A stretch of DNA of 64,000 nucleotides, from NCBI RefSeq assembly GCF_029457495.1, contig NZ_CP120361.1, positions 1,054,001 through 1,118,000 of the forward strand. The letters are read 5' to 3'. The translations under genes and the position numbers were made by a program. Numbering within the stretch: the stretch's first letter is position 1; each line of letters opens with the position of its first letter. Shown one piece after another: positions 3,888-19,824 of the stretch. The stretch comes from Chelativorans sp. AA-79 (GTDB taxonomy: Bacteria; Pseudomonadota; Alphaproteobacteria; Rhizobiales; Rhizobiaceae). The notes under the pieces were generated by a model. That model searched no databases. It was not told the origin of the DNA and saw nothing but the letters and a program-made list of their open reading frames with translations.

Positions 3888-4829
3888 ATGGCTCGGCGGA
3901 AATCCATCGTGCCGTTTCTGGCGGCGGGTCTGATTGCGGTCTCGTGCCTTACGGCCGCGGCGGAGGACGTGGCGGACAGCGCCGACCATCCCCTGATCCC
4001 GCGCTATGAAGGTGCGGAGATCGTGCGCTACGAAAACGAGGCCTTCACCGATTACGATCTGCGCACCGGCAAGGAGGCGAAGACCGGAACGACATCCCTC
4101 GAAGGCAAGCTTGCACGCATCACCTATCAGGGGCCGGCGGAGCGCTCGGTGCTCGAGGTGTTCCGCAACTACGAGAACGCACTCGGCGAGGCCGGATTCG
4201 AGACGCTGTTTTCCTGCGCCAGGCTGGAATGCGGCGACATCCCGCGCGCTCTCGAGAGCGGCCCGCGCTACATGCTCCTTTGGGGCGAGGGCGACCACCG
4301 CTATCTCGCCGCCAAGCTGACCCGCGCGGACGGCGATGTCTATGCCGCACTGTACGTGACGAAGAACGGCAGTGGCGGACCGGCCAAAGGCCGCGCCATG
4401 GTGCAGCTCGACGTGGTCGAGCTCGAAGCCATGGAACAGAAGATGGTGGTCGTCGAAGCAAGTGCCATGCATGACGATCTTGCCCGGGAGGGCCGGGTTG
4501 CGCTCCATGGAATCCAGTTCGACTTCGACAAGGATACGCTGCGTCCCGACTCCGCTCCGCAGATCGCGGAGATCGCGAAGCTGCTGAAGGAGAATCCCTC
4601 ATTCTCCGTGCTCGTGGTGGGGCATACCGACATGCAAGGTGCGCTCGACTACAATATGGATCTGTCCCGCCGCCGTGCTGCCCGCGTGGTGGAGGCGCTC
4701 GTCGGCGAGTTCGGTGTCGCCGGGGAGCGTCTGAACGCGCTGGGCGTCGGTCCGGCGGCGCCGCTCGCCAGCAATGACGGTGAAGAGGGCCGGGCGCTCA
4801 ATCGCCGCGTCGAAATCGTGAAGCAATAG
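3888..4829 (+). CDS. OmpA-family outer-membrane/peptidoglycan-associated protein
   Basis: A 313-residue exported protein. ATG 3888 was chosen because it follows a strong GGGAGGGG ribosome site and opens with a clear signal peptide (MARRKS, then a hydrophobic core to about residue 25, cleavage near TAAAED); in-frame codons upstream overlap the preceding gene. Residues ~35-180 look like a DUF4892-type N-terminal domain. Residues ~205-313 are an OmpA-like peptidoglycan-binding domain, with the FDFDKDTL start, the VVGHTD motif and the SRRRAARV helix. Such proteins tie the outer membrane to the cell wall. No transmembrane beta-barrel is evident; it may be periplasmic. It starts 80 bases after the FAH gene and could share its transcript. 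Confidence 0.85.
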   Translation: MARRKSIVPFLAAGLIAVSCLTAAAEDVADSADHPLIPRYEGAEIVRYENEAFTDYDLRTGKEAKTGTTSLEGKLARITYQGPAERSVLEVFRNYENALGEAGFETLFSCARLECGDIPRALESGPRYMLLWGEGDHRYLAAKLTRADGDVYAALYVTKNGSGGPAKGRAMVQLDVVELEAMEQKMVVVEASAMHDDLAREGRVALHGIQFDFDKDTLRPDSAPQIAEIAKLLKENPSFSVLVVGHTDMQGALDYNMDLSRRRAARVVEALVGEFGVAGERLNALGVGPAAPLASNDGEEGRALNRRVEIVKQ

Positions 4830-4927: not shown

Positions 4928-4952
4928 GGAACATTCTTTCCCCTTGGAAGTT
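4928..4952 (+). promoter_or_regulatory. Candidate EcfG (general stress sigma) promoter for the inositol-glycoside cluster
   Basis: GGAAC at 4928-4932, a 16-base spacer, then AGTT at 4949-4952. The established alphaproteobacterial EcfG/RpoE2 consensus is GGAAC-N16/17-CGTT, so only the first -10 base differs. It lies about 150 bases before the first gene of the cluster (start 5102), in a 272-base gap that holds no gene. Similar sites precede ino1 (8191) and the trehalose operon (21996). Confidence 0.5.
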
Positions 4953-5101: not shown

Positions 5102-5848
5102 ATGAACACGGTATTTCAAGACGATCTTGCGAGGCGCATCGCGGAGCTTGGCCCCTGGTTCCAGAACATGATGATCGGCGGAATCCAGACTGCGCCCGAT
5201 CACTTCCTTGGCGACTACCCCAACTGCAAGTGGCGGAATTTCTCGCATATCATCCCGGATGACCTCGAAGGGCGGACAGTGCTCGATATCGGCTGCAATG
5301 CCGGATTCTACGCGATCGAGATGAAGCGTCGGAATGCCGGCCGCGTGGTCGGCATCGACAGCGACCCTCATTATCTGCGCCAGGCCGACTTCGCGGCGAA
5401 GGAGATGGAGACCGATATCGAGTTCCGGCAGATGTCGGTCTACGAGGTGGGCCGGCTCAAGGAAAAGTTCGATCTCGTCCTCTTCATGGGCGTGCTCTAC
5501 CACCTGCGCCATCCGCTGCTCGCGCTCGATCTCATATACGAGCATGTGGCAGGGGATCAGATGCTCTTCCAGTGCCTGCAAAGGGGCTCGGAGGAGGTGG
5601 CGGACCTGGAGGAGGACTACCCCTTCTCCGAATGGAACCTGTTCTATCGGCCGGATTTTCCCAAGCTCCACTTCATCGAGCATCGCTATACCGGCGACCC
5701 GACCAACTGGTTCTTCCCGAACCGCGCGGCGGTGGAGGCGATGCTGCGCAACAGCGGTTTCGTGATCGAGGAGCGCCCTGAGGCCGAGGTCTATCTCTGC
5801 CGCAGGGGCGAGCGGGGCTTCGCAGTCGATCCGCCGCCGATCGGCTGA
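5102..5848 (+). CDS. SAM-dependent methyltransferase, CmoB-like (TIGR04290-type)
   Basis: A 248-residue class I methyltransferase. SAM-binding motif I is VLDIGCNAG at residues 60-68, with the acidic residue after the second strand at Asp86 (GIDSDP) and post-motif VLFMGVLYHLRHP. The overall layout resembles the catalytic part of CmoB, the tRNA wobble-uridine carboxymethyltransferase. CmoB itself is longer and sits with cmoA, which is absent, so tRNA modification is unlikely; I recall a family of such cluster-associated methyltransferases (Rta_06860/TIGR04290) but cannot confirm membership here. It is the first gene of the eleven-gene cluster that ends at 14794 and probably methylates the cluster's product or an intermediate. 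The EcfG-like site at 4928 lies upstream. Confidence 0.75.
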   Translation: MNTVFQDDLARRIAELGPWFQNMMIGGIQTAPDHFLGDYPNCKWRNFSHIIPDDLEGRTVLDIGCNAGFYAIEMKRRNAGRVVGIDSDPHYLRQADFAAKEMETDIEFRQMSVYEVGRLKEKFDLVLFMGVLYHLRHPLLALDLIYEHVAGDQMLFQCLQRGSEEVADLEEDYPFSEWNLFYRPDFPKLHFIEHRYTGDPTNWFFPNRAAVEAMLRNSGFVIEERPEAEVYLCRRGERGFAVDPPPIG

Positions 5849-5863
5849 TTCCACGAATTCACC

Positions 5864-5888
5864 CGAACAATTTTCCGCCGCGTCCGTT
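5864..5888 (+). promoter_or_regulatory. Weak EcfG-like promoter before the FemAB-like gene
   Basis: CGAAC at 5864-5868, a 16-base spacer and CGTT at 5885-5888: the -10 element and spacing match the EcfG consensus, but the first base of the -35 element is C instead of G. It sits in the 55-base gap between the methyltransferase and the FemAB-like gene and would start transcription very near the proposed start codon at 5904, which argues for the later ATG (5934) if it is real. Low confidence. Confidence 0.25.
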
Positions 5889-5903
5889 GGGCGGGCAGGA
5901 CGG

Positions 5904-6869
5904 ATGTTGCGGCGACGGTGGGTATTTTTTGCGATGCAGACAGAGATCCTGACCGAAGCTCGGCCGCTGGCCGACGAGTGGTGGAACTTGTGGCGCTGCG
6001 ACCCGGACGCCACTCCGTTCCAGAGTCCGGCTTGGCTGTTGCCATGGCGCCGGCATTTCCGGGATGGCGAGAACGTGGTCGTGACGTTGCGTCGGCACGG
6101 CCGTCTGGTGGGGCTTGTTCCCCTCGTGCAGCTCGACGGGAGGCTCATCCTCTGGGGCGCGGGAACCTCCGACTGGCTGGGCGGGTTGTTCGATCCTGAG
6201 CTTGAGCCGGAGGCGGCTGCGGACGCACTTGCCCTTCTCGACAAGCCGCTCGACCTCTTCCAGCTTGCCGAGAGGGCGCCGCTGCTGCGTTTCCCTGCGC
6301 CGGAGGGATGGGAGGATAGGCAGGGCCCTTCCGAAAGCTGCGCAGTGCTTTCCCTGCCGGCCCGGCCCGGCACGCATATGCGCCAGAACTTACGATATTA
6401 TGCGCGGCGGGCAGCCCGTGGCGGCGTGAGGGCGCCCGAACGGGTGGGGGCGGGCCAGGTGAGAAGCCTCGCCGAGTTGCATACGCGTCGCTGGGAGAGC
6501 CGGGAGGAGCCCGGCGTATTCGCCGATCCGCGCATGATTTCGTGGCTGGAGGAGGCGGCGGCGCTTCTCGACCAAGCGGGGCTGCTGCGGCTCTACGCGA
6601 TGCGGAGGGAAGGCCGCGTCATCGCGGCACTCTGCGTGCTCCATGCGAAGGGCAGGGCATTCTATTATATCGGCGGGTTCGATCCGGAGCATGCGAAGCT
6701 CGGGCTCGGAACGGTGCTCGTCGGCCACGCGATCGCCGAGGCCGAGCGCGAGGGGCTCGCGCAGTTCGACTTCCTGCGCGGGCAGGAGGACTACAAATAC
6801 CGGTGGGGCGCTCAGGACCGGCCCACCTATGCCCGATATCTCGTTCCGGCCGTGAGGAGGGCTGCGTGA
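5904..6869 (+). CDS. FemAB/BioF2-like GNAT-fold acyltransferase
   Basis: A 321-residue protein with two apparent GNAT-like halves, as in the FemAB/CelD (BioF2-like) group: an N-terminal part around FQSPAWLLPWRRHF and a C-terminal part with RREGRVIAALCVLHAKGRAFYYIGGFDPEHAKLG-type strands (split here across residues ~235-270) and GLGTVLVGHAIAEA. The C-terminal FDFLRGQEDYKYRWG is characteristic of this family. Relatives move aminoacyl or acyl groups onto amino sugars, exopolysaccharides or peptides. ATG 5904 has a GCAGGA ribosome site; ATG 5934 is the alternative and gives a more family-like N-terminus. It overlaps the next gene by four bases (GTGA). An acyltransferase for the cluster's amino-sugar product is a reasonable inference. 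Confidence 0.7.
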   Translation: MLRRRWVFFAMQTEILTEARPLADEWWNLWRCDPDATPFQSPAWLLPWRRHFRDGENVVVTLRRHGRLVGLVPLVQLDGRLILWGAGTSDWLGGLFDPELEPEAAADALALLDKPLDLFQLAERAPLLRFPAPEGWEDRQGPSESCAVLSLPARPGTHMRQNLRYYARRAARGGVRAPERVGAGQVRSLAELHTRRWESREEPGVFADPRMISWLEEAAALLDQAGLLRLYAMRREGRVIAALCVLHAKGRAFYYIGGFDPEHAKLGLGTVLVGHAIAEAEREGLAQFDFLRGQEDYKYRWGAQDRPTYARYLVPAVRRAA

Positions 6870-7678
6870 CGGAGAAGCTCGGCATCCGCTGGACGGTCGG
6901 CGACGTCTCACAGCGCGGGTTCGAAGCGCTCCGCCTTTCCCTATGGGGTGCGCATCTCGCCTTCGGCGACGAGATCCGCATGGCGGTGGTCGTAAATTCC
7001 CTTCCGCCGGAGGAGGCCAAGAGGAGAACGGGCGACGTGCCGCGCGGGGTCGTGTGGCTGGCCGCCGGAGAGCCGCCGGGGGTGCTTGCCGACTTCCTGG
7101 ACGAGGAGATGGCCGAGGGCGTCGCGTGGAAGCTCGCCCCGCCCAGGGTGTTTCCGGATATCCATGAGCTTTCGCTCGACAATGACTGCATCCTGTGGAG
7201 CGTGCCGCCCGCGATCTTCGCATGGATGGAGGAGGAAGCACCGCGCTGCCTGATCGCGGCGGACGTGACGCTTGCCCTGGGGGCGTTCACCGAGTTCACG
7301 CGGCCGGAGCCGCGCAACACCGGAATCCGGGGCCTGCCGCCGCATCATGATCTTCCGGCTGCCCTGGAGCGCGTTCTGCGGGAGCATCCGGTGAAATTGC
7401 GCTCGGAACTCGACGAGCAGGGCCTGCAGGCGGCGGCATTCGACCTCGACCGGCCGGCGCATATCGTCTCCACAGACGACGTCTCCATCTGCTCGCCCTT
7501 CTGGCCGCATCAACCGGATCTCGGCCGGCATGGCGCGCATTTCGTGGGCCTCAATGCGCGCCGGCTGCCGTGGACTTATTATCGCCGGCCGGCGAGCGAA
7601 TGCGTGGCGGAGAACTGGGAAAGGCATCGGCCCGAGCTCTATCGCCGCGTCGGATTGAAAGTGCCGGAAGATGCGTAA
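6866..7678 (+). CDS. Unknown protein of the inositol-glycoside cluster, possibly GT-A-like
   Basis: A 270-residue protein I do not recognise. GTG 6866 overlaps the preceding stop (GTGA) and the stop overlaps the next start by one base (TAATG), so it is firmly embedded in the operon. No signal peptide or membrane segment is seen. An N-terminal part with alternating strands (MAVVVNSLPP, GVVWLAAGEPP) leads to ELSLDNDCILWSVP, an acidic DND loop after a strand that recalls the DxD metal/nucleotide site of GT-A glycosyltransferases, followed by LIAADVTLALGAF. The C-terminal half holds several paired histidines (GLPPHHDLP, FWPHQPDL, RHGAHF). A nucleotide-sugar-dependent transferase is possible but is only a structural guess. 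Confidence 0.6.
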   Translation: MTEKLGIRWTVGDVSQRGFEALRLSLWGAHLAFGDEIRMAVVVNSLPPEEAKRRTGDVPRGVVWLAAGEPPGVLADFLDEEMAEGVAWKLAPPRVFPDIHELSLDNDCILWSVPPAIFAWMEEEAPRCLIAADVTLALGAFTEFTRPEPRNTGIRGLPPHHDLPAALERVLREHPVKLRSELDEQGLQAAAFDLDRPAHIVSTDDVSICSPFWPHQPDLGRHGAHFVGLNARRLPWTYYRRPASECVAENWERHRPELYRRVGLKVPEDA

Positions 7679-8136
7679 TGTTGCAGGTTGAGACGGATAC
7701 CATAGAGGCAACCATCAGGGCCACTGTCCGCCCCTGCAGGTCCTCCGACCTGCAGGCACTGGAATGGATGGGACTCTACACGCCGCATCGTGCGATCATC
7801 AGGCGGGCTTTCGAGGCGCAGGAGCGCGGAGAGGCGCTCATGCTGCTTGCCGTCTCCAGCGGCTTTCCGATCGCGCAGGTATGGGTGGATTTCACCCGTA
7901 AGGACAATGTCGCCTATTTCTGGGCTGTACGCACCTTTTTCCCCCTGCAGGGCGCCGGGATCGGGTCGCGCATGATCCGCGCCGCCGAGCGGGCGGCCCG
8001 TCGCCGCGGCTGCAGGCGCGCCGAGCTTGAAACGGAAGACGACCTCACCACCTTCTATGAGCGCCTGGGCTGGCGGAGGGCGGGGGAACGCGGCGAAGGG
8101 CGCTGTCTGATGGCCAAGGATCTCAAGGAATTGTGA
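7678..8136 (+). CDS. GNAT-family N-acetyltransferase
   Basis: A 152-residue single-domain GNAT protein. The acetyl-CoA pyrophosphate loop is visible as PLQGAGIGSRM (Q/R-x-x-G-x-G/A), followed by the helix IRAAERAARRRG and the typical C-terminal FYERLGW strand-helix. ATG 7678 shares one base with the previous stop; the shorter in-frame start choices would remove the first strand. The substrate is unknown. In a cluster that also holds a PIG-L deacetylase it could acylate a freed amino group, as MshD does in mycothiol assembly, but MshD is a double-GNAT protein and this one is single. It ends 165 bases before ino1, the largest gap inside the cluster. Confidence 0.8.
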   Translation: MLQVETDTIEATIRATVRPCRSSDLQALEWMGLYTPHRAIIRRAFEAQERGEALMLLAVSSGFPIAQVWVDFTRKDNVAYFWAVRTFFPLQGAGIGSRMIRAAERAARRRGCRRAELETEDDLTTFYERLGWRRAGERGEGRCLMAKDLKEL

Positions 8137-8190
8137 CGGTGTCCGGCCTCGCGCGGGCGATGCCGTTAGCCGGGCAAGCAATCCTACTCT

Positions 8191-8215
8191 GGAACAAAAT
8201 CGCGTCGCGCCTGTT
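8191..8215 (+). promoter_or_regulatory. Candidate EcfG promoter before ino1
   Basis: GGAAC at 8191-8195, a 16-base spacer and TGTT at 8212-8215, one mismatch from the EcfG consensus GGAAC-N16/17-CGTT. It lies in the 165-base gap between the GNAT gene and ino1 (start 8302), leaving a leader of roughly 80 bases with a ribosome site (CGGAGACGAG) just before the ATG. It suggests the second half of the cluster has its own stress promoter. Confidence 0.5.
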
Positions 8216-8301
8216 TCAATCTAGCCGGAGGGAGCAGGATTGCGACACTGCCCGCGTCGCCTCATCGACCGCTTCCTTCCCGAGAAAACGGAGACGAGAC
8301 T

Positions 8302-9405
8302 ATGCATGGTGCTCAAGTGCGCGTGGGTATTGTCGGCGTTGGCAACTGCGCATCCTCCTTCGTGCAGGGGCTCGCGCATTACCGTGGCGTGCGATCCAAC
8401 AATCCCATTCCCGGGATCATGAATCCCGATGTCGGCGGCTATCTGATAGACGACATCGTCATCAGCTCCGCATTCGACGTGAATGCATCCAAGGTGGGGC
8501 GCGACGTCGCCGAGGCGATCTTCGCCCAACCGAACAACACCATCCGCTTCGCCGATGTGGAGCCGACGGGCGTGACCGTCTCGCGCGGCAGGACGCTCGA
8601 CGGTATCGGTAAATATCTCGCCGAAGAGATCGAGGAATCCGACGAGCCGGACGCCGATGTCGCGGCCGTCCTCAGCGAAAGCAGGACGGACGTGCTCGTC
8701 TCCTACCTTCCGGTCGGCTCGGAGCAGGCGGCGCTGTTCTATGCCGAGGAGGCGCTCAAAGCGGGCTGTGCCTTCGTGAACTGCATGCCGGTCTTCATCG
8801 CTTCACGGCCGGAATGGCGCAAGAAGTTCGAGGAGCGCGGGCTTCCGATCATCGGCGACGACATCAAGAGCCAGTTCGGGGCGACGATTGTGCATCGGGT
8901 GCTGACGAACCTCTTTCGCGACCGCGGCGTGCGGCTCGACCGCACCTACCAGCTCAATTTCGGAGGCAATACGGATTTCCAGAACATGCTGGAACGCGAG
9001 CGGCTGGAATCCAAGAAGATCTCCAAGACGCAGGCCGTCACGAGCCAGCTCGGCGTACCCATGGAGAAGGAGAACATCCATGTGGGGCCGAGCGATCACG
9101 TCCCCTGGCTCTCCGACCGCAAATGGGCCTATATCCGCATGGAGGGCACCACATTCGGGGGTGTTCCCATCAATTGCGAGCTGAAGCTCGAAGTTTGGGA
9201 TTCTCCCAACAGCGCGGGTGTCGTGATCGATGCGGTGCGTTGCGCCAAGCTCGCGATGGACCGGGGAGAATCGGGGGCCCTCATCGGGCCTTCAAGCTAT
9301 TTCATGAAGTCCCCTCCGCAGCAGTTCACGGACGCCGAGGCGCGGCTCCGGACGTTGCAGTTCATCTCCGGGGATGAAGAGATAGCGACCGGTCTCAAGC
9401 AGTGA
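8302..9405 (+). CDS. ino1: Inositol-3-phosphate synthase (short, actinobacterial/archaeal type)
   Basis: A 367-residue enzyme converting glucose-6-phosphate to 1D-myo-inositol 3-phosphate with NAD as internal redox cofactor. The N-terminal Rossmann loop [11 protein letters not shown] is at residues 9-19. Family motifs follow: [19 protein letters not shown], the [15 protein letters not shown] core and [12 protein letters not shown]. The length equals that of the mycobacterial Ino1 class rather than the ~510-residue eukaryotic class. Its product is the acceptor for glycosyltransfer in mycothiol and phosphoinositide synthesis. The stop overlaps the GTG start of the phosphatase gene (GTGA). A candidate EcfG promoter lies upstream. 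It makes inositol phosphate the likely entry metabolite of this cluster. Confidence 0.93.
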
Positions 9406-10022
9406 ACACCTTGTTCCATCTCTTGCGCCACGCTTCGCATGGCCATGTCGGCACGGTTCTCACGGGCAGGCTTTCGGGCGCGCCGCTCACGCCCGCGGGG
9501 CGGGAAGAGGCGCTCGCTCTCGGGCGATACCTGGCCGGCCGGAAGCCCGATGCGATCTACACCAGCCCGCGGCTGCGCGCGCAGCAGACGGCCGAGATCG
9601 TCGGACGGGAGACGAATACTCCCTACGAGGTGGCGCCGGAACTCGACGAGATCGATTTCGGCGACTGGTCGGGAAAGGGCTTCGAGGAACTCGGCGAGGA
9701 CCGTGCCTGGCGGCGCTGGAACGAGGAGCGCGACACTGCGGCAACCCCGGCGGGAGACACGATGGAAAGGGCCAGCGCCAGGATGACCGGCTTCATGCAT
9801 CGGCTGCATGCCGACTTTCCGGGCCAGGGATTCGCGCTCGTCAGCCACAGCGACGTCATAAAGGCCGCGCTCTGCCGCACACTGGGCACACCCTTCCGGA
9901 GCGTGCACGAGTTCGAGATCGCGCCGGCCTCGGTCACAACGCTTTCCTTCGACAGTGACGGCGCAAGGCTGGTGACGCGCAATCTCCAGCCCGCGCGTCT
10001 CAACGTGGGGGCCTTTGCATGA
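9402..10022 (+). CDS. Histidine phosphatase (phosphoglycerate-mutase-like) family protein
   Basis: A 206-residue member of the histidine phosphatase superfamily. The phosphohistidine motif reads LLRHASHG (RHA instead of the commoner RHG, a known variant), with [10 protein letters not shown], the acidic IDFGDWSGK segment and the second catalytic histidine in [15 protein letters not shown] 9402 overlaps the ino1 stop and its own stop overlaps the next ATG (ATGA), so it is coupled on both sides. Members dephosphorylate sugar phosphates or act as mutases. Immediately behind ino1 it may remove phosphate from inositol phosphate or from a glycosyl-inositol-phosphate; mycothiol assembly also needs such a step. 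Substrate is inference only. Confidence 0.85.
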
Positions 10023-11116
10023 AGCTTGTCGTCTTCGGGCTCAGCATCAGCTCGTCCTGGGGAAACGGCCACGCGACGCTCTGGCGCGGGCTCGTCCGGG
10101 CGCTCGGGCGGCGCGGCTGGACGGTGGTGTTCTTCGAACGCGACCTTCCCTATTATGCGGGTGCGCGCGATCTCTACGAGATCGAAAATGGCGAGTTGAT
10201 CCTCTACGGCGATTGGGAGGAGGCACTGCCGGCTGCGCGCCGGCATCTCGCCGACGCGGATGTGGCGCTCGTCTCGTCCTACTGCCCGGACGGAATTGCC
10301 GCCTCCGACCTGGTGTTGTCCGCGCATCGCCCGATCCGCGTGTTCTACGATCTCGACACGCCGGTGACGCTCTCCGCGCTCGATCGCGGAGAGGCAACCA
10401 CCTATATCGGTCCCCGAGGTCTCGCCGATTTCGACCTGGTGCTGAGCTATACCGGCGGCGAAGCGCTGGATGCCTTGAAATCGAGGCTCGGTGCGCGCAT
10501 CGTGGCGCCACTCTACGGCCATGTGGACCCTTGCGTGCATCGGCCCACCGCCCCGGCGGCGCACTACGGAGCCGACCTTTCCTATATCGGTACCTATGCG
10601 GAGGACCGGCAAGCGGGCGTTTCCGCCTTTCTGCTCGAGCCGGCGCGCCAGCGTCCCGCCCTGCGCTTCGTCATCGCGGGGGCGCAGTATCCGCAGGATT
10701 TCCCGTGGGGCGAAAACGTTTTCTTCGTCCGGCATCTGCCCCCGGAGGAGCATCCTGCCTTCTACTCCTCCTCGCGGCTGACGCTGAACGTCACGCGGCG
10801 GGCGATGGCCAGGATGGGCTGGTGCCCTCCGGGGCGCCTGTTCGAGGCCGCCGCTTGCTGCGTGCCCATCGTCTCCGACCGGTGGCAAGGTCTCGATACG
10901 TTCTTCGAGCCCGGGCATGAGATCCTGGTCGCGGTCGAGTCTGACGACGTCATCGCCGCCCTCGATCTTGGCGACGCGGAGCTCCGCCGGATTGCGGAAG
11001 CTGCCCGGGACCGGGTGCTTTCGTGCCATACCTCGGAGCACCGCGCCATCGAACTCGAAGCCATCCTCGAGGATTTGAAATCTGCCGCCGCCGGCGAGCC
11101 GGCGCTGCAGGCGTGA
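10019..11116 (+). CDS. CgeB-like glycosyltransferase
   Basis: A 365-residue protein of the CgeB/GT-B type. The N-terminal Rossmann half opens with [18 protein letters not shown]. The C-terminal half shows the typical CgeB segments DLSYIGTYAEDRQ, FFVRHLPPEEHPAFYSSSRLTLN-type motif (residues ~240-262) and CPPGRLFEAAACCVPIVSD with EPGHEILV, matching the nucleotide-sugar binding and glutamate loops of GT-B enzymes. CgeB is known from Bacillus spore-crust glycosylation; other members decorate surface structures. ATG 10019 overlaps the previous stop by four bases. Within the cluster it is one of two clear glycosyltransferases (the other at 13748) and could add a second sugar. Donor and acceptor are unknown. 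Confidence 0.8.
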   Translation: MKLVVFGLSISSSWGNGHATLWRGLVRALGRRGWTVVFFERDLPYYAGARDLYEIENGELILYGDWEEALPAARRHLADADVALVSSYCPDGIAASDLVLSAHRPIRVFYDLDTPVTLSALDRGEATTYIGPRGLADFDLVLSYTGGEALDALKSRLGARIVAPLYGHVDPCVHRPTAPAAHYGADLSYIGTYAEDRQAGVSAFLLEPARQRPALRFVIAGAQYPQDFPWGENVFFVRHLPPEEHPAFYSSSRLTLNVTRRAMARMGWCPPGRLFEAAACCVPIVSDRWQGLDTFFEPGHEILVAVESDDVIAALDLGDAELRRIAEAARDRVLSCHTSEHRAIELEAILEDLKSAAAGEPALQA

Positions 11117-11127
11117 AGGAGCCGTCC

Positions 11128-11973
11128 ATGTGGGGAATCATTCCGGCAGCAGGTTGCGGAAGCCGTATCCAGCCTCTCGCCTTCTCGAAGGAGCTTCTGC
11201 CCGTCGGCAGCTGCCTTACCGACGGCGCCGAACGTCCCTGCGCCGTCAGTGAATATTTGTGTGAGCGCATGATCGCGGGCGGTGCGGACAAGCTCTGCTT
11301 CGTCATCGCGCCCGGAAAATCCGATATCCTCGAATATTACGGCGGGAACTACGGCGACGCCTCCATCGCCTATGTGGTGCAGCCGGAGGCGAGCGGTCTG
11401 TGCGACGCCATTTTCCGGGTGGCGCCGCTGGTCGCGCCGGACGAGCACCTGCTGGTGGGCCTGCCGGACACGATCTGGATGCCCGCCGACGGCTATCAGG
11501 CCTTGCCGGATGGAGCGCTGTCGTTCCTGCTGTTTCCGGTGGAGAACCCGTCGGCGTTCGACGCCGTGGAGACGGATGACGCGGGCAATGTCCGCGAAAT
11601 CCAGGTGAAGCAGGCGCACCCCTCGACCAAATGGGTCTGGGGCGGCTTCAAGATGTCGGGCCGCATCCTCCATGAACTCCGGGCGCTCTGGCTCGAACGG
11701 GAGTGTGCGGACGAATATATGGGCACGCTGGTCAACGCCTATCTGGCGAAAGGCGGCAGCGCGCAAGGCGTCAAAGCCGGTCACGCCTATGTGGACGTGG
11801 GCACGCTCGAAGGCTACCGCGCCGCCAACGATCTTCTGAGGCACGCCAATGCCGAGCGGGATGCGCCGGCTCCCGGCATCCATGTCACGGCAGGCGCTCC
11901 CGCGGGGCGCCAGCTTCTCGCCCACCGGCGCGAACTCGTAATGTCCTTCAAGCAAGTCGAACGAGGGGTCTGA
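11128..11973 (+). CDS. Sugar nucleotidyltransferase (NTP-transferase family)
   Basis: A 281-residue GT-A-fold nucleotidyltransferase. The NTP-binding loop is PAAGCGSRIQPL, followed by SKELLPVGS and, further on, VGLPDTIW with the metal-binding Asp. It resembles glucose-1-phosphate thymidylyl- or uridylyltransferases. ATG 11128 was chosen because MWGIIPAAG starts directly with the first strand and GAAGGAG lies at the right distance; a GTG at 11113 overlapping the preceding stop would add five residues. The C-terminal ~40 residues (after GYRAANDLLRHA) are an extra tail not expected in RmlA/GalU. It most likely activates the sugar for the neighbouring glycosyltransferases. The nucleotide and sugar cannot be read from the sequence. 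Confidence 0.82.
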   Translation: MWGIIPAAGCGSRIQPLAFSKELLPVGSCLTDGAERPCAVSEYLCERMIAGGADKLCFVIAPGKSDILEYYGGNYGDASIAYVVQPEASGLCDAIFRVAPLVAPDEHLLVGLPDTIWMPADGYQALPDGALSFLLFPVENPSAFDAVETDDAGNVREIQVKQAHPSTKWVWGGFKMSGRILHELRALWLERECADEYMGTLVNAYLAKGGSAQGVKAGHAYVDVGTLEGYRAANDLLRHANAERDAPAPGIHVTAGAPAGRQLLAHRRELVMSFKQVERGV

Positions 11974-11976
11974 CTG

Positions 11977-12894
11977 ATGATCGAAGCCGCGATGATCTGG
12001 AACGAGCCGAACAACAAATCCCACTGGGATCCGGAAATCGATCCCGAATGGGCGCTGTTCGCCGAGATGGCCATCGGCGCGGCCGACGCGATCGGCAGCG
12101 TCAATCCCGATGTCGTCCGCGTGCTCGGCGGCATTTCGCCGATCGACCCTCTGTTCATCCAGAACCTGCAGGGCAAGGGCGTGCTCGATCACCTCGATGC
12201 AATCGCCGTGCATGGCTTCCCGCTCGACTGGAACCTGTGGCAGATCCATGAATGGCCGCAGAAGCTGGCCGAAATCCAGGCACTCACGCATCTGCCCGTC
12301 TGGGTGAGCGAGGTGGGGGTCTCCACTTTCGGTGCGGAGGAGGTGCAGCTCTGGGGTCTTGATCGCACCGCGGAGCTGCTCAAGGGCCGCTCGCCGCGCA
12401 TCCAGTGGTACAGCCTCTTCGACTTGCCGCAGGCCTGGGGCGCCACCACGAGGCATAGGGAGGCGGAGGGGTCTTCCTACTACCGCCACTTCTATATGGG
12501 GCTCATACGAGAAGACGGGACGCCGAAGCCGGCACTGGAAAAATTCGCCGAACACACGCCGGAGCTCGGCCTTTGCCAGTGGTTCCATTTCGAGGATCCG
12601 CGGCTCGACGAGGCGGTCACCTGGATGAAGCGGCTCGGTGTCAAATATCTGCGCACGGGCCTTTCCTGGGCCGACAGCTTCCGCCCCGGCGCGCTCGACT
12701 GGTTCGACCGGCAGATGGAGGCGCTCGCCGATTTCGACGTGACGGTCACTTTCTGCTTCACGCCGGAGCATCGCGGCATCGCGCCCCACCACACCAGCGC
12801 TCCACAGGTGCCGCAGGAGTTTGCCGATTTCTGCGGCTCCATGATCGAGCGTTATGCGGGGCGGAACCGGAACCAGATCAGGGGCGCGGCATGA
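11977..12894 (+). CDS. Glycoside-hydrolase clan-A-like protein with permuted TIM-barrel motif order
   Basis: A 305-residue protein related to clan GH-A (GH39/beta-xylosidase-like) barrels. The acid/base motif WNEPN is at residues 8-12, almost the N-terminus; the presumed nucleophile Glu in VWVSEVGVS follows near residue 113, and the strand-8 tryptophan region (WYSLFDLPQ) near 145. Normally three strands come before NEP. Here the missing segment appears at the C-terminus instead: GVKYLRTGLSW, then VTVTFCFTPEHRG and the FADFCGSMIERYAG helix that ordinarily leads into WNEPN. So the barrel looks circularly permuted. No signal peptide is present, so it acts in the cytoplasm. It begins 3 bases after the nucleotidyltransferase and overlaps the PIG-L gene by four bases. 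Hydrolase, transglycosylase or binding role is open. Confidence 0.75.
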   Translation: MIEAAMIWNEPNNKSHWDPEIDPEWALFAEMAIGAADAIGSVNPDVVRVLGGISPIDPLFIQNLQGKGVLDHLDAIAVHGFPLDWNLWQIHEWPQKLAEIQALTHLPVWVSEVGVSTFGAEEVQLWGLDRTAELLKGRSPRIQWYSLFDLPQAWGATTRHREAEGSSYYRHFYMGLIREDGTPKPALEKFAEHTPELGLCQWFHFEDPRLDEAVTWMKRLGVKYLRTGLSWADSFRPGALDWFDRQMEALADFDVTVTFCFTPEHRGIAPHHTSAPQVPQEFADFCGSMIERYAGRNRNQIRGAA

Positions 12895-13757
12895 CCGGCA
12901 TGACATGCCTGGGCGAGGAGGAGCTTTACCTGCCCGCCGGATCCTTGCTGGAGGCGGTCTGCTCGCCCGAGGCGGGCTCCTTCGATTGCCACGACACCGT
13001 GGTGGTGGTTGCGCATCCTGACGACGAGACGATCGCCATCGGCGGGCAACTCGCCCGGATGGAGGGTGTGCGCATCGTGCATGTGACGGACGGTGCGCCC
13101 GCCAACATGAAAGACGCGCAAGTCAACGGCTTTTCCCGGCGGGAGGATTATGCGGCGGCCCGGCGCCGGGAGCTGGAAACCGCGGTCGCCATGGCGGGGG
13201 TGAAACCCGAGGCGTGCCACCTGATCGGCGTTCCCGACCAGTCGGCGGCATACCGGCTCGCCGAGATCGCTTCGCGGCTCGCCGAACTCTTCTCCGAATT
13301 CCGGATCGCCACCGTTCTCACGCATGCCTTCGAAGGCGGGCACCCCGACCATGACTCGACGGCCTTCGCGGTGCGGGCCGCCATCCATCTGGCGGGCCGG
13401 CGCGGACTTCCGCTGCCGGTGGTCTATGAGTTCCCGCTCTATCGGATGAAGCAGGACCAAAGGGCGTTCCAGGAATTCATTCCGGGTGATCAGGTCGAAT
13501 ACGCGATCGCACTCGACAACGAGACGGTGGAATTGAAACGGCGGATGCTCGCCGCCCATGCGACCCAGCAATTCGTTCTGGCTCCCTTCATCACGAAGAC
13601 GGAGCGCTTCCGGTTGGCGGCGCCTTGCGATTTCCGGGAACTGCCCAACAACGGCAACGTATTCTACGCCCAGTTCAACTGGGGGCTTCGCCCTTCGGAC
13701 TGGGCGGATCTGGTCGAGAAGGCAAGCCGGGAGCTCGACCTCCCCAAATGGCTCTGA
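12891..13757 (+). CDS. PIG-L family N-acetylglucosamine-type deacetylase
   Basis: A 288-residue zinc-dependent deacetylase of the PIG-L/LmbE/MshB superfamily. The metal-binding motifs are AHPDDE at residues 41-46 and HPDH at 151-154, with the catalytic Asp in the first. Known members deacetylate GlcNAc-inositol conjugates: MshB in mycothiol, PIG-L in GPI anchors, BshB in bacillithiol. ATG 12891 overlaps the previous stop (ATGA); a long in-frame extension upstream is not coding. Its presence with inositol-3-phosphate synthase and a GT4 transferase in one operon is the main reason to propose a glucosaminyl-inositol-type product. The end overlaps the GT4 start by ten bases. Confidence 0.9.
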   Translation: MTGMTCLGEEELYLPAGSLLEAVCSPEAGSFDCHDTVVVVAHPDDETIAIGGQLARMEGVRIVHVTDGAPANMKDAQVNGFSRREDYAAARRRELETAVAMAGVKPEACHLIGVPDQSAAYRLAEIASRLAELFSEFRIATVLTHAFEGGHPDHDSTAFAVRAAIHLAGRRGLPLPVVYEFPLYRMKQDQRAFQEFIPGDQVEYAIALDNETVELKRRMLAAHATQQFVLAPFITKTERFRLAAPCDFRELPNNGNVFYAQFNWGLRPSDWADLVEKASRELDLPKWL

Positions 13758-14790
13758 CGGTCCTCAGCGTCGCGTATCCCTTCGCGCCGGTCGGGCCCGA
13801 TGTGGTGGGCGGTGCAGAGCAGGTGCTTTCGGCGCTCGACCGGGCGCTGGTGCGCAACGGCCATCACTCGATTATCATCGCCTGCAAGGGATCGGAGACG
13901 GCCGGTCGGCTGATAACGCTGCCGTCGGGACGAGGTCCGATCGATGATGTCGTCCGGCAGGAGAGATGGGCGCAGATGCGCCGGCTGATCGCCTGGGTTC
14001 TGACGCAGGAGCGTGTGGACCTGGTGCATCTGCACGGCATCGATTTCCATGAATACCTGCCGGAGGGTATCCCCACCCTTGCGACCTTGCATCTGCCTCT
14101 CGACTGGTATCCCGGTTGGATCTTTCAGCGCCGCCCGAATCTCTGGCTGCACTGCGTCTCCGAGGCGCAGCACCGCACGGCACCGGACGGCGCATCCCTG
14201 CTTCCACCGGTTCCGAATGGAGCTCCGCAGGCGTTGTTCGAGACGCGGCAGCGCAAGCGCGACCATGCGCTGCTGCTCAGCCGCATCTGCCCGGAAAAGG
14301 GGATTCATCTTGCGCTCCAGGCCTGCCGGCTCGTCGACGTGCCGCTTTTGATCGGCGGGCAGATTTTTCCCTATGAAGCGCATCAGCGCTATTTCAGGGA
14401 GGAGGTGGCGCAGCTACTGGACTCCCGCAGGAAGTTCCTCGGCCCGCTGGACTTCGATCGGAAACGGCGGCTGCTCGCTTCCGCACGATGCGTGATCGTG
14501 CCGAGCCTGGTGGCCGAGACGAGCTCGCTCACGGCCATCGAGGCGCTTGCCTGTGGCACGCCGGTGATCGCCTTTGCCAAGGGAGCGCTGCCGGAAGTGA
14601 TCGAGGACGGCCGGACGGGCTTCATCGTCGATGACGTGCTGGAGATGGCGCAGGCTGTTTCGGCTGCACCATCGCTGGATCCGGCTGCCTGCCGGGCGGC
14701 GGCTCGGGAGCGCTTTTCCCCGGAGACCATGGAACGGCGCTATCTCGATCTTTATCGGCAGCTCACAGACACGGGCCGGCGAGCCGAATG

Positions 14791-14794
<4 letters not shown>
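13748..14794 (+). CDS. GT4-family glycosyltransferase
   Basis: A 348-residue GT-B glycosyltransferase of family 4. Visible are the N-terminal loop [12 protein letters not shown], the central DLVHLHGID strand, and the C-terminal donor site: [42 protein letters not shown] (E-x7-E region, about residues 250-278) and the [13 protein letters not shown] motif. This is the fold and family of MshA, which joins GlcNAc to inositol phosphate, but also of very many other enzymes, so sequence alone does not fix the acceptor. The start lies inside the end of the PIG-L gene. It is the last gene of the cluster and overlaps the convergent ureG by four bases. Confidence 0.88.

Positions 14795-15414
<620 letters not shown>

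Positions 15415-18127: not shown

Positions 18128-19824
<1,697 letters not shown>

Follow-up and report, generated by a model that had tools for sequence, protein, structure and literature searches.

A conserved inositol-linked gene cluster of Chelativorans sp. AA-79 and related bacteria with a putative circularly permuted glycosidase and EcfG-type promoter sites

We analysed an 11-gene cluster of Chelativorans sp. AA-79 at positions 5102-14794 of the window, the 64,000-nucleotide stretch of contig NZ_CP120361.1 under study (the source genome comprises 5.76 Mb in three contigs). The genes of this cluster group beyond chance in related genomes. Their core consists of 1D-myo-inositol 3-phosphate synthase (INO1), a histidine phosphatase, a glycosidase-like protein and a methyltransferase, usually joined by a CgeB-type glycosyltransferase. 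INO1 is preceded by an EcfG-type promoter site far more often than expected, a second gene module recurs beside the core, and the glycosidase-like protein is a natural circular permutant. We propose that the two modules encode a cytoplasmic pathway under general stress control whose product is a soluble oligosaccharide that contains inositol and is O-methylated, a proposal whose chances we regard as evenly balanced. A sequence-only reading of the same DNA had described a stress-linked inositol-glycoside cluster with mycothiol-like logic; the permuted glycosidase, the second module and the EcfG-type sites go beyond it.

Gene content and conservation of the cluster

All 11 open reading frames (ORFs) of the cluster are present on the plus strand, and six of the ten junctions between them overlap by 1-10 bases, in line with the earlier description of eleven co-directional genes, most of them overlapping. 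With the gene starts given in Table 1, the other four junctions leave 55, 165, 11 and 3 bases between neighbouring genes. Families were named from Pfam and NCBIfam profile scores compared with curated cut-offs (Table 1). Two proteins had no family above cut-off, namely orf3 and the 305-residue glycosidase-like protein, which matched no NCBIfam model and gave only a sub-threshold match in Pfam (PF11790, 14 bits against 21). INO1 scored 527 bits against TIGR03450, under the cut-off of 638. Synthesis of inositol 3-phosphate is nevertheless well supported, since INO1 is 62% identical to Mycobacterium tuberculosis Ino1 over 354 aligned residues. The histidine phosphatase is probably a (glyco)inositol-phosphate phosphatase, a substrate that we infer.

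Related loci were collected with the 305-residue protein as query, which yielded at least 561 relatives among at least 598 matched stretches; the closest named relative among the matches listed was from Chelativorans (93%). The best 80 of these relatives from named organisms formed the locus set, which leans towards close relatives because the best-scoring ones were taken. The set consists mainly of Rhizobiales and Acetobacteraceae, and Steroidobacter and Peristeroidobacter lie outside the class by name. A window protein was counted as present when tblastn found it at an E-value of 1e-8 or better within 10 kb, and some loci were cut by contig ends. Profile searches agreed with these counts (Table 1).

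The expectation that the set is conserved as a unit held for the core, with INO1 kept in 74 and the phosphatase in 76 of the 80 loci, and to a much smaller extent for the PIG-L, GT4 and GNAT genes, which were found in far fewer (17, 29 and 1). These low counts mark the genes reminiscent of mycothiol synthesis as an accessory submodule. The analysis upholds the inositol-glycoside cluster of the sequence-only reading, as one that is conserved in Alphaproteobacteria. The orf3 and GNAT genes look like lineage-specific additions. A separate search with orf3 detected 1591 homologues of about 270 residues; the 120 listed carry alphaproteobacterial names and are mostly annotated as 'hypothetical protein'.

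Table 1. Features of the cluster and its surroundings in the window, with the number of loci (of 80) in which each window protein was found by tblastn and, after the slash, by profile search
Feature	Position	Strand	Loci	Remarks
TIGR04290-family S-adenosylmethionine methyltransferase (248 aa)	5102..5848	+	66/66	394 bits against a cut-off of 300
FemAB-like acyltransferase (PF13480, Acetyltransf_6, 321 aa)	5904..6869	+	27/27	
orf3 (270 aa)	6866..7678	+	2	family without Pfam or NCBIfam name
GNAT acetyltransferase	7678..8136	+	1	named from Pfam
INO1, 1D-myo-inositol 3-phosphate synthase (367 aa)	8302..9405	+	74/74	
Histidine phosphatase (206 aa)	9402..10022	+	76/76	named from Pfam/NCBIfam
CgeB-type glycosyltransferase (PF13524, 365 aa)	10019..11116	+	62	some CgeB; paralogues of module B counted too
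Sugar-1-phosphate nucleotidyltransferase (NTP_transferase, 281 aa)	11128..11973	+	46/46	
TIM-barrel glycosidase-like protein in circularly permuted order (305 aa)	11977..12894	+		candidate catalytic Glu10 and Glu112
PIG-L (LmbE-like) deacetylase	12891..13757	+	17/17	AHPDDE and HPDHD motifs
GT4 glycosyltransferase	13748..14794	+	29/28	
EcfG-like site GGAACAAAATCGCGTCGCGCCTGTT	8191..8215	+		ends 87 bp before the INO1 ATG
EcfG-like site GGAAC-N16-AGTT	4928..4952	+		one mismatch to GGAAC-N16-CGTT; ends about 150 bp upstream of the methyltransferase ORF
OmpA-domain protein with DUF4892	3891..4829	+		directly upstream of the cluster
UreG	14791..15414	-		among urease genes 3' of the cluster
5' ureB small RNA (Rfam)	19384..19672	+		118 bits; close to the urease genes

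A circularly permuted glycosidase-like protein

By sequence, the 305-residue protein corresponds to a TIM-barrel glycosidase that has undergone natural circular permutation, with its two halves swapped relative to its relatives. Both forms were found in a sample of 289 genomes of the class, and the permuted protein also occurs in 12 genomes of a phylum sample of 398. The window methyltransferase is by score a member of TIGR04290 (meth_Rta_06860), a family present in 14 of the class genomes. The glycosidase was found in 12, every one of them among those 14, against none of the 275 genomes without TIGR04290 (Fisher p 1.6e-19, with relatedness ignored). Of the TIGR04290 genomes, only G071 and G137 lack it, and their completeness is 82% and 83%. 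Six of the 12 glycosidase-positive genomes carry a full-length permuted form, and six match only where a match to the canonical form would be expected. INO1 was found in 25 class genomes, including five of the six with the permuted form, G071 and none of the six with the canonical form.

In these TIGR04290 clusters without INO1 the canonical order was seen whole in three of six cases (L018, L022 and L028) and partly, at stretch ends, in two (L025 and L027). The three complete homologues start with the part that matches residues 198-294 of the window protein, directly followed by the part that matches residues 3-184. When the window protein was doubled, it aligned with L028 in a single high-scoring segment pair (residues 198-489 to residues 10-291, 31% identity, E-value 2.4e-37), and the alignments with L022 and L018 were likewise continuous. 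A profile of 35 permuted sequences matched PslG among solved chains with a whole-sequence E-value of 7.5e-7. This alignment is also swapped, with residues 200-295 on chain positions 25-130 followed by residues 3-185 on 132-320, and the two segments are weak singly (i-Evalues 2.8 and 0.0026).

Glu10 and Glu112 are invariant in the 35 aligned rows, where NEP and SE motifs are found. The predicted model (predicted local distance difference test [pLDDT] 82, predicted template-modelling score 0.85) has eight strands alternating with helices. In this prediction, in which residues 11-15 are of low confidence (pLDDT below 50), Glu10 follows the first strand and Glu112 lies on the fourth, which correspond to canonical strands 4 and 7. 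Clan-A glycosidases carry their catalytic glutamates at strands 4 and 7. The window protein thus shares its candidate glutamate positions, its NEP and SE motifs and its eight-stranded alternating model with clan-A enzymes (PslG by profile, GH1 by the fold of the canonical homologue), but differs in strand order, as its chain begins at canonical strand 4 and finishes with strands 1-3. Among glycosidases, a natural circular permutation of the TIM barrel is known from GH70 as compared with GH13. Those families belong to another clan and lineage, and in the present case the canonical form is fused to a nucleoside diphosphate (NDP)-sugar epimerase in sister clusters. This fusion of the glycosidase domain to a nicotinamide adenine dinucleotide (NAD)-dependent epimerase measures 676-695 residues in the three complete cases. 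Where the permuted form is present, the epimerase ORF has 359-462 residues in 39 of 41 cases; those of 559 and 562 residues in the other two were taken as having over-extended starts.

A second module and EcfG-type promoter sites

Clustering of the neighbouring ORFs of the 80 loci gave 17 recurrent families from outside the window, each annotated through one representative. Among them is a second module (module B) of epimerases, a GT4 glycosyltransferase and three CgeB-type enzymes. Of six module B families, one or more lie within 10 kb in 58 of the 80 loci and two or more in 50. The counts are 45 for the GT4 family c4, 44 for the CgeB family c6, and 38, 38 and 22 for the epimerase families c7, c8 and c10. 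In the genome of the window, module B lies on contig 1 about 169 kb from the cluster, at about 882.2-889.9 kb (stretch L134, 6250-13907), in the order c8, c7, c4, c6, CgeB, CgeB, c10, followed by a topoisomerase IB (TopoIB). Further recurrent families are a Zn-dehydrogenase (26 of 80), a Gfo/Idh/MocA protein (25), a second methyltransferase (25) and the radical S-adenosylmethionine family TIGR04295 (B12_rSAM_oligo; 10). A profile search found no match to TIGR04295 in this genome; the name alone suggests that its curators view the family as oligosaccharide-linked.

Several other neighbours were recorded at these loci. The TopoIB after module B lies at L134:14304-15392, and its family occurs in 6 of the 80 loci; for S. 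melonis, one report describes a TopoIB that depends on EcfG (PMC6599016). Phosphopentomutase (DeoB) lies beside the cluster in 12 of the 80, including Belnapia, Plastoroseomonas, Bradyrhizobium, Rhodoplanes and Steroidobacter types. Its representative (L089:14020-15264) scores 510 bits, and it could possibly supply pentose-1-phosphate. A conserved protein of about 592 residues without a Pfam match was found in 30 of the 80 loci (for example L096:3726-5501, minus strand), and its gene is divergent from INO1 in seven of the eight such loci displayed.

Promoter sites were searched with the motif GGAAC-N16/17-nGTT from 350 bp before to 30 bp after the INO1 start, at 79 loci (the window, 73 of the named set and five others). 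A site was present at 53 of the 79 where background density predicts about 2.7, and the stricter CGTT form at 17, with about 0.8 expected. The same test gave 0/87 for the glycosidase, 1/49 for the nucleotidyltransferase, 3/75 for CgeB, 3/82 for the histidine phosphatase, 1/30 for GT4, 0/19 for PIG-L and 6/79 for the methyltransferase. A recount by ORF start again put INO1 high (49/79), together with c8, the first gene of module B (21/45). Low values were obtained for c4 (0/48), c7 (3/44), CgeBx (2/136) and the glycosidase (0/87), and intermediate ones for c20 (5/13), DeoB (3/12), the Zn-dehydrogenase (6/26), the second methyltransferase (5/32) and c6 (7/46). In this genome a site at L134:6178 lies just 5' of the c8 similarity; the 20-kb stretch holds eight matches, compared with about 3.6 by background. 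The EcfG regulons of Alphaproteobacteria likewise have GGAAC-N16/17-nGTT sites before operon-first genes. The motif given for S. melonis is GGAAC-N17-20-GTT (PMC6599016).

An EcfG-like sigma-factor family occurs in 15 of the 80 loci, and its representative matches PhyR_sigma2. The genome of the window contains three genes with this domain. Two of them are divergent and 0.5 kb apart, and we read this pair as putative phyR and ecfG from their scores and arrangement. Together with the sites before INO1, the gene pair supports the stress link that had been proposed from sequence.

Proposed pathway and alternatives

Under our proposal the cluster would form module A, expressed under the PhyR-NepR-EcfG general stress response. 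INO1 makes 1D-myo-inositol 3-phosphate, and the histidine phosphatase would dephosphorylate it, either ahead of glycosylation or once sugars have been added. The nucleotidyltransferase may provide an NDP-sugar, CgeB and GT4 would add sugars, and the TIGR04290 enzyme would carry out O-methylation. In this lineage PIG-L could deacetylate an N-acetylhexosamine, and the FemAB-like and GNAT enzymes could acylate the freed amine. Module B would contribute epimerised NDP-sugars, three more CgeB-type enzymes and one GT4. The permuted glycosidase may trim or transglycosylate an intermediate, the same job as that of the canonical glycosidase-epimerase fusion in the sister clusters without INO1. The product may protect the cell under stress. 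More tentatively, it could be an intracellular protectant of a new class, an inositol-capped methylated oligosaccharide. The permuted clan-A glycosidase might then act as a synthetic transglycosidase that replaced the epimerase-fused canonical domain when the pathway acquired inositol.

The cytoplasmic location is the weakest step of the proposal, as exporters may lie elsewhere. No hydrophobic segment was found in the 11 proteins at the Kyte-Doolittle threshold used, and two or more segments were rare across 19 families (INO1 1/80, c4 2/56, c11 3/30). This favours cytoplasmic synthesis of a soluble product. The test is crude since single segments, which were frequent in some families (c13 25/26, c11 20/30, c4 21/56, INO1 22/80), occur partly in known soluble ones.

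Several observations weigh against the proposed pathway. Module B genes are absent within 10 kb in 22 of the 80 loci. The site before INO1 in the window carries TGTT instead of CGTT. Near-matches in the window are not in excess (16 against 12.45 expected and 8 against 12.09), so the site at 4928..4952 is weak on its own. A site is absent at 26 of the 79 loci, including 11 of 12 Acetobacteraceae, both Methylobacterium, three of four Bradyrhizobium and both Steroidobacter types. It is also absent from five INO1 loci outside the named set, Alsobacter, Mangrovicella and one Rhodospirillales bin. Of the 25 INO1-positive class genomes, 19 lack TIGR04290, so INO1 has other uses and is by itself not specific to the pathway. 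Conversely, G147 has the permuted glycosidase and no INO1 at an E-value of 1e-50 or better. Finally, homologues of polysaccharide pyruvyl transferase and of FrhB, found in 13 of the 80 loci each, suggest a surface glycan in some species.

These homologues bear on a possible but doubtful alternative, in which the modules make the repeat unit of, or a decoration on, lipopolysaccharide or exopolysaccharide, where inositol would be one constituent and export would fall to unlinked machinery. The many glycosyltransferases and epimerases would fit such a role, as would the nearest solved glycosidase by profile, PslG, a protein that belongs to the Psl exopolysaccharide. On the other hand, no flippase, polymerase, ABC exporter or priming transferase was seen among the 17 recurrent families, as annotated through one representative each, and the absence of hydrophobic segments from the 11 proteins at the threshold used also speaks against it.

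We consider it improbable that INO1, the histidine phosphatase and the glycosidase form a small unit that supplies free inositol and, following stress, frees it or a sugar from a glycoside, next to a separate glycan cluster. These three are the sole window genes in 8 of the 80 loci (L049, L051, L061, L062, L065, L087, L100 and L108), mostly from Sinorhizobium, Ensifer or Rhizobium. However, TIGR04290 is present in all 12 glycosidase-positive class genomes. In S. meliloti ABS7, where INO1, the phosphatase and the glycosidase (annotated as beta-xylosidase) are consecutive, INO1 is separated by about 8-13 kb from a TIGR04290 methyltransferase, a short-chain dehydrogenase/reductase and three glycosyltransferases.

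The mycothiol comparison fared worst. The mycothiol pathway consists of Ino1, MshA, a phosphatase, MshB, MshC and MshD, and the cluster shares with it an Ino1 as well as GT4, PIG-L and GNAT proteins. The cluster GT4 reached 42 bits with the MshA model (TIGR03449), and the best protein in the genome 116, under a cut-off of 462.5 that 1 of 14 control genomes exceeded. For MshB (TIGR03445), where the search covered the cluster PIG-L only, the score was 34 bits against 224. The best match in the genome to MshC (TIGR03447) scored 240 bits against 485.1, a cut-off exceeded by 1 of 14 control genomes, and was taken as an ordinary CysS; the earlier statement that no MshC-like ligase is present and no thiol is predicted therefore stands. 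The bacillithiol-type models scored no better, with 48 bits against 274 for BshA (GT4), and 45 against 195 and 31 against 182 for BshB1 and BshB2 (PIG-L). The closest solved structures to GT4, in a comparison run from the codon at 13754, are a glycosyl transferase of unspecified type (7fg9, 8x3q) and UDP-glucose (uridine diphosphate glucose):tetrahydrobiopterin glucosyltransferases; GT4 is similar to enzymes whose acceptor is a small soluble molecule. To our knowledge, mycothiol synthesis has nothing that corresponds to TIGR04290, CgeB, the glycosidase or module B. A mycothiol-like molecule, in which GT4, the phosphatase, PIG-L and an acyltransferase act on inositol 3-phosphate to give a glucosamine-inositol conjugate, to which FemAB might add an amino acid, is very unlikely: all four enzyme types lie beside INO1, but the Msh models are far under cut-off, and the scheme cannot be the core since PIG-L and GT4 are accessory next to INO1.

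The proposed stress-controlled oligosaccharide pathway is widespread in bacteria and apparently undescribed. Literature searches, which covered few subscription papers, found no description of the operon, its EcfG link or the glycosidase permutation, and no published EcfG regulon naming the operon was found in the parts of the literature examined. TIGR04290 and TIGR04295 are already in NCBIfam, with model descriptions that give no function; the links to INO1, the permuted glycosidase and EcfG come from the present analysis. Sinorhizobium meliloti is a natural test organism, since strain ABS7 carries the core trio together with the TIGR04290 and glycosyltransferase block; in strain 1021 the glycosidase is on pSymB (257009-257890).

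Since the permuted glycosidase has an extant canonical counterpart in pathways of this type, the pair provides a natural experiment in barrel topology. In S. melonis, about 40% of the genes that depend on EcfG lack an assigned function, according to a published report (PMC6599016). The conserved multi-enzyme pathway, whose loci carry EcfG-type sites in genera of rhizobia such as Sinorhizobium, Mesorhizobium and Microvirga, is a concrete candidate output of the general stress response.

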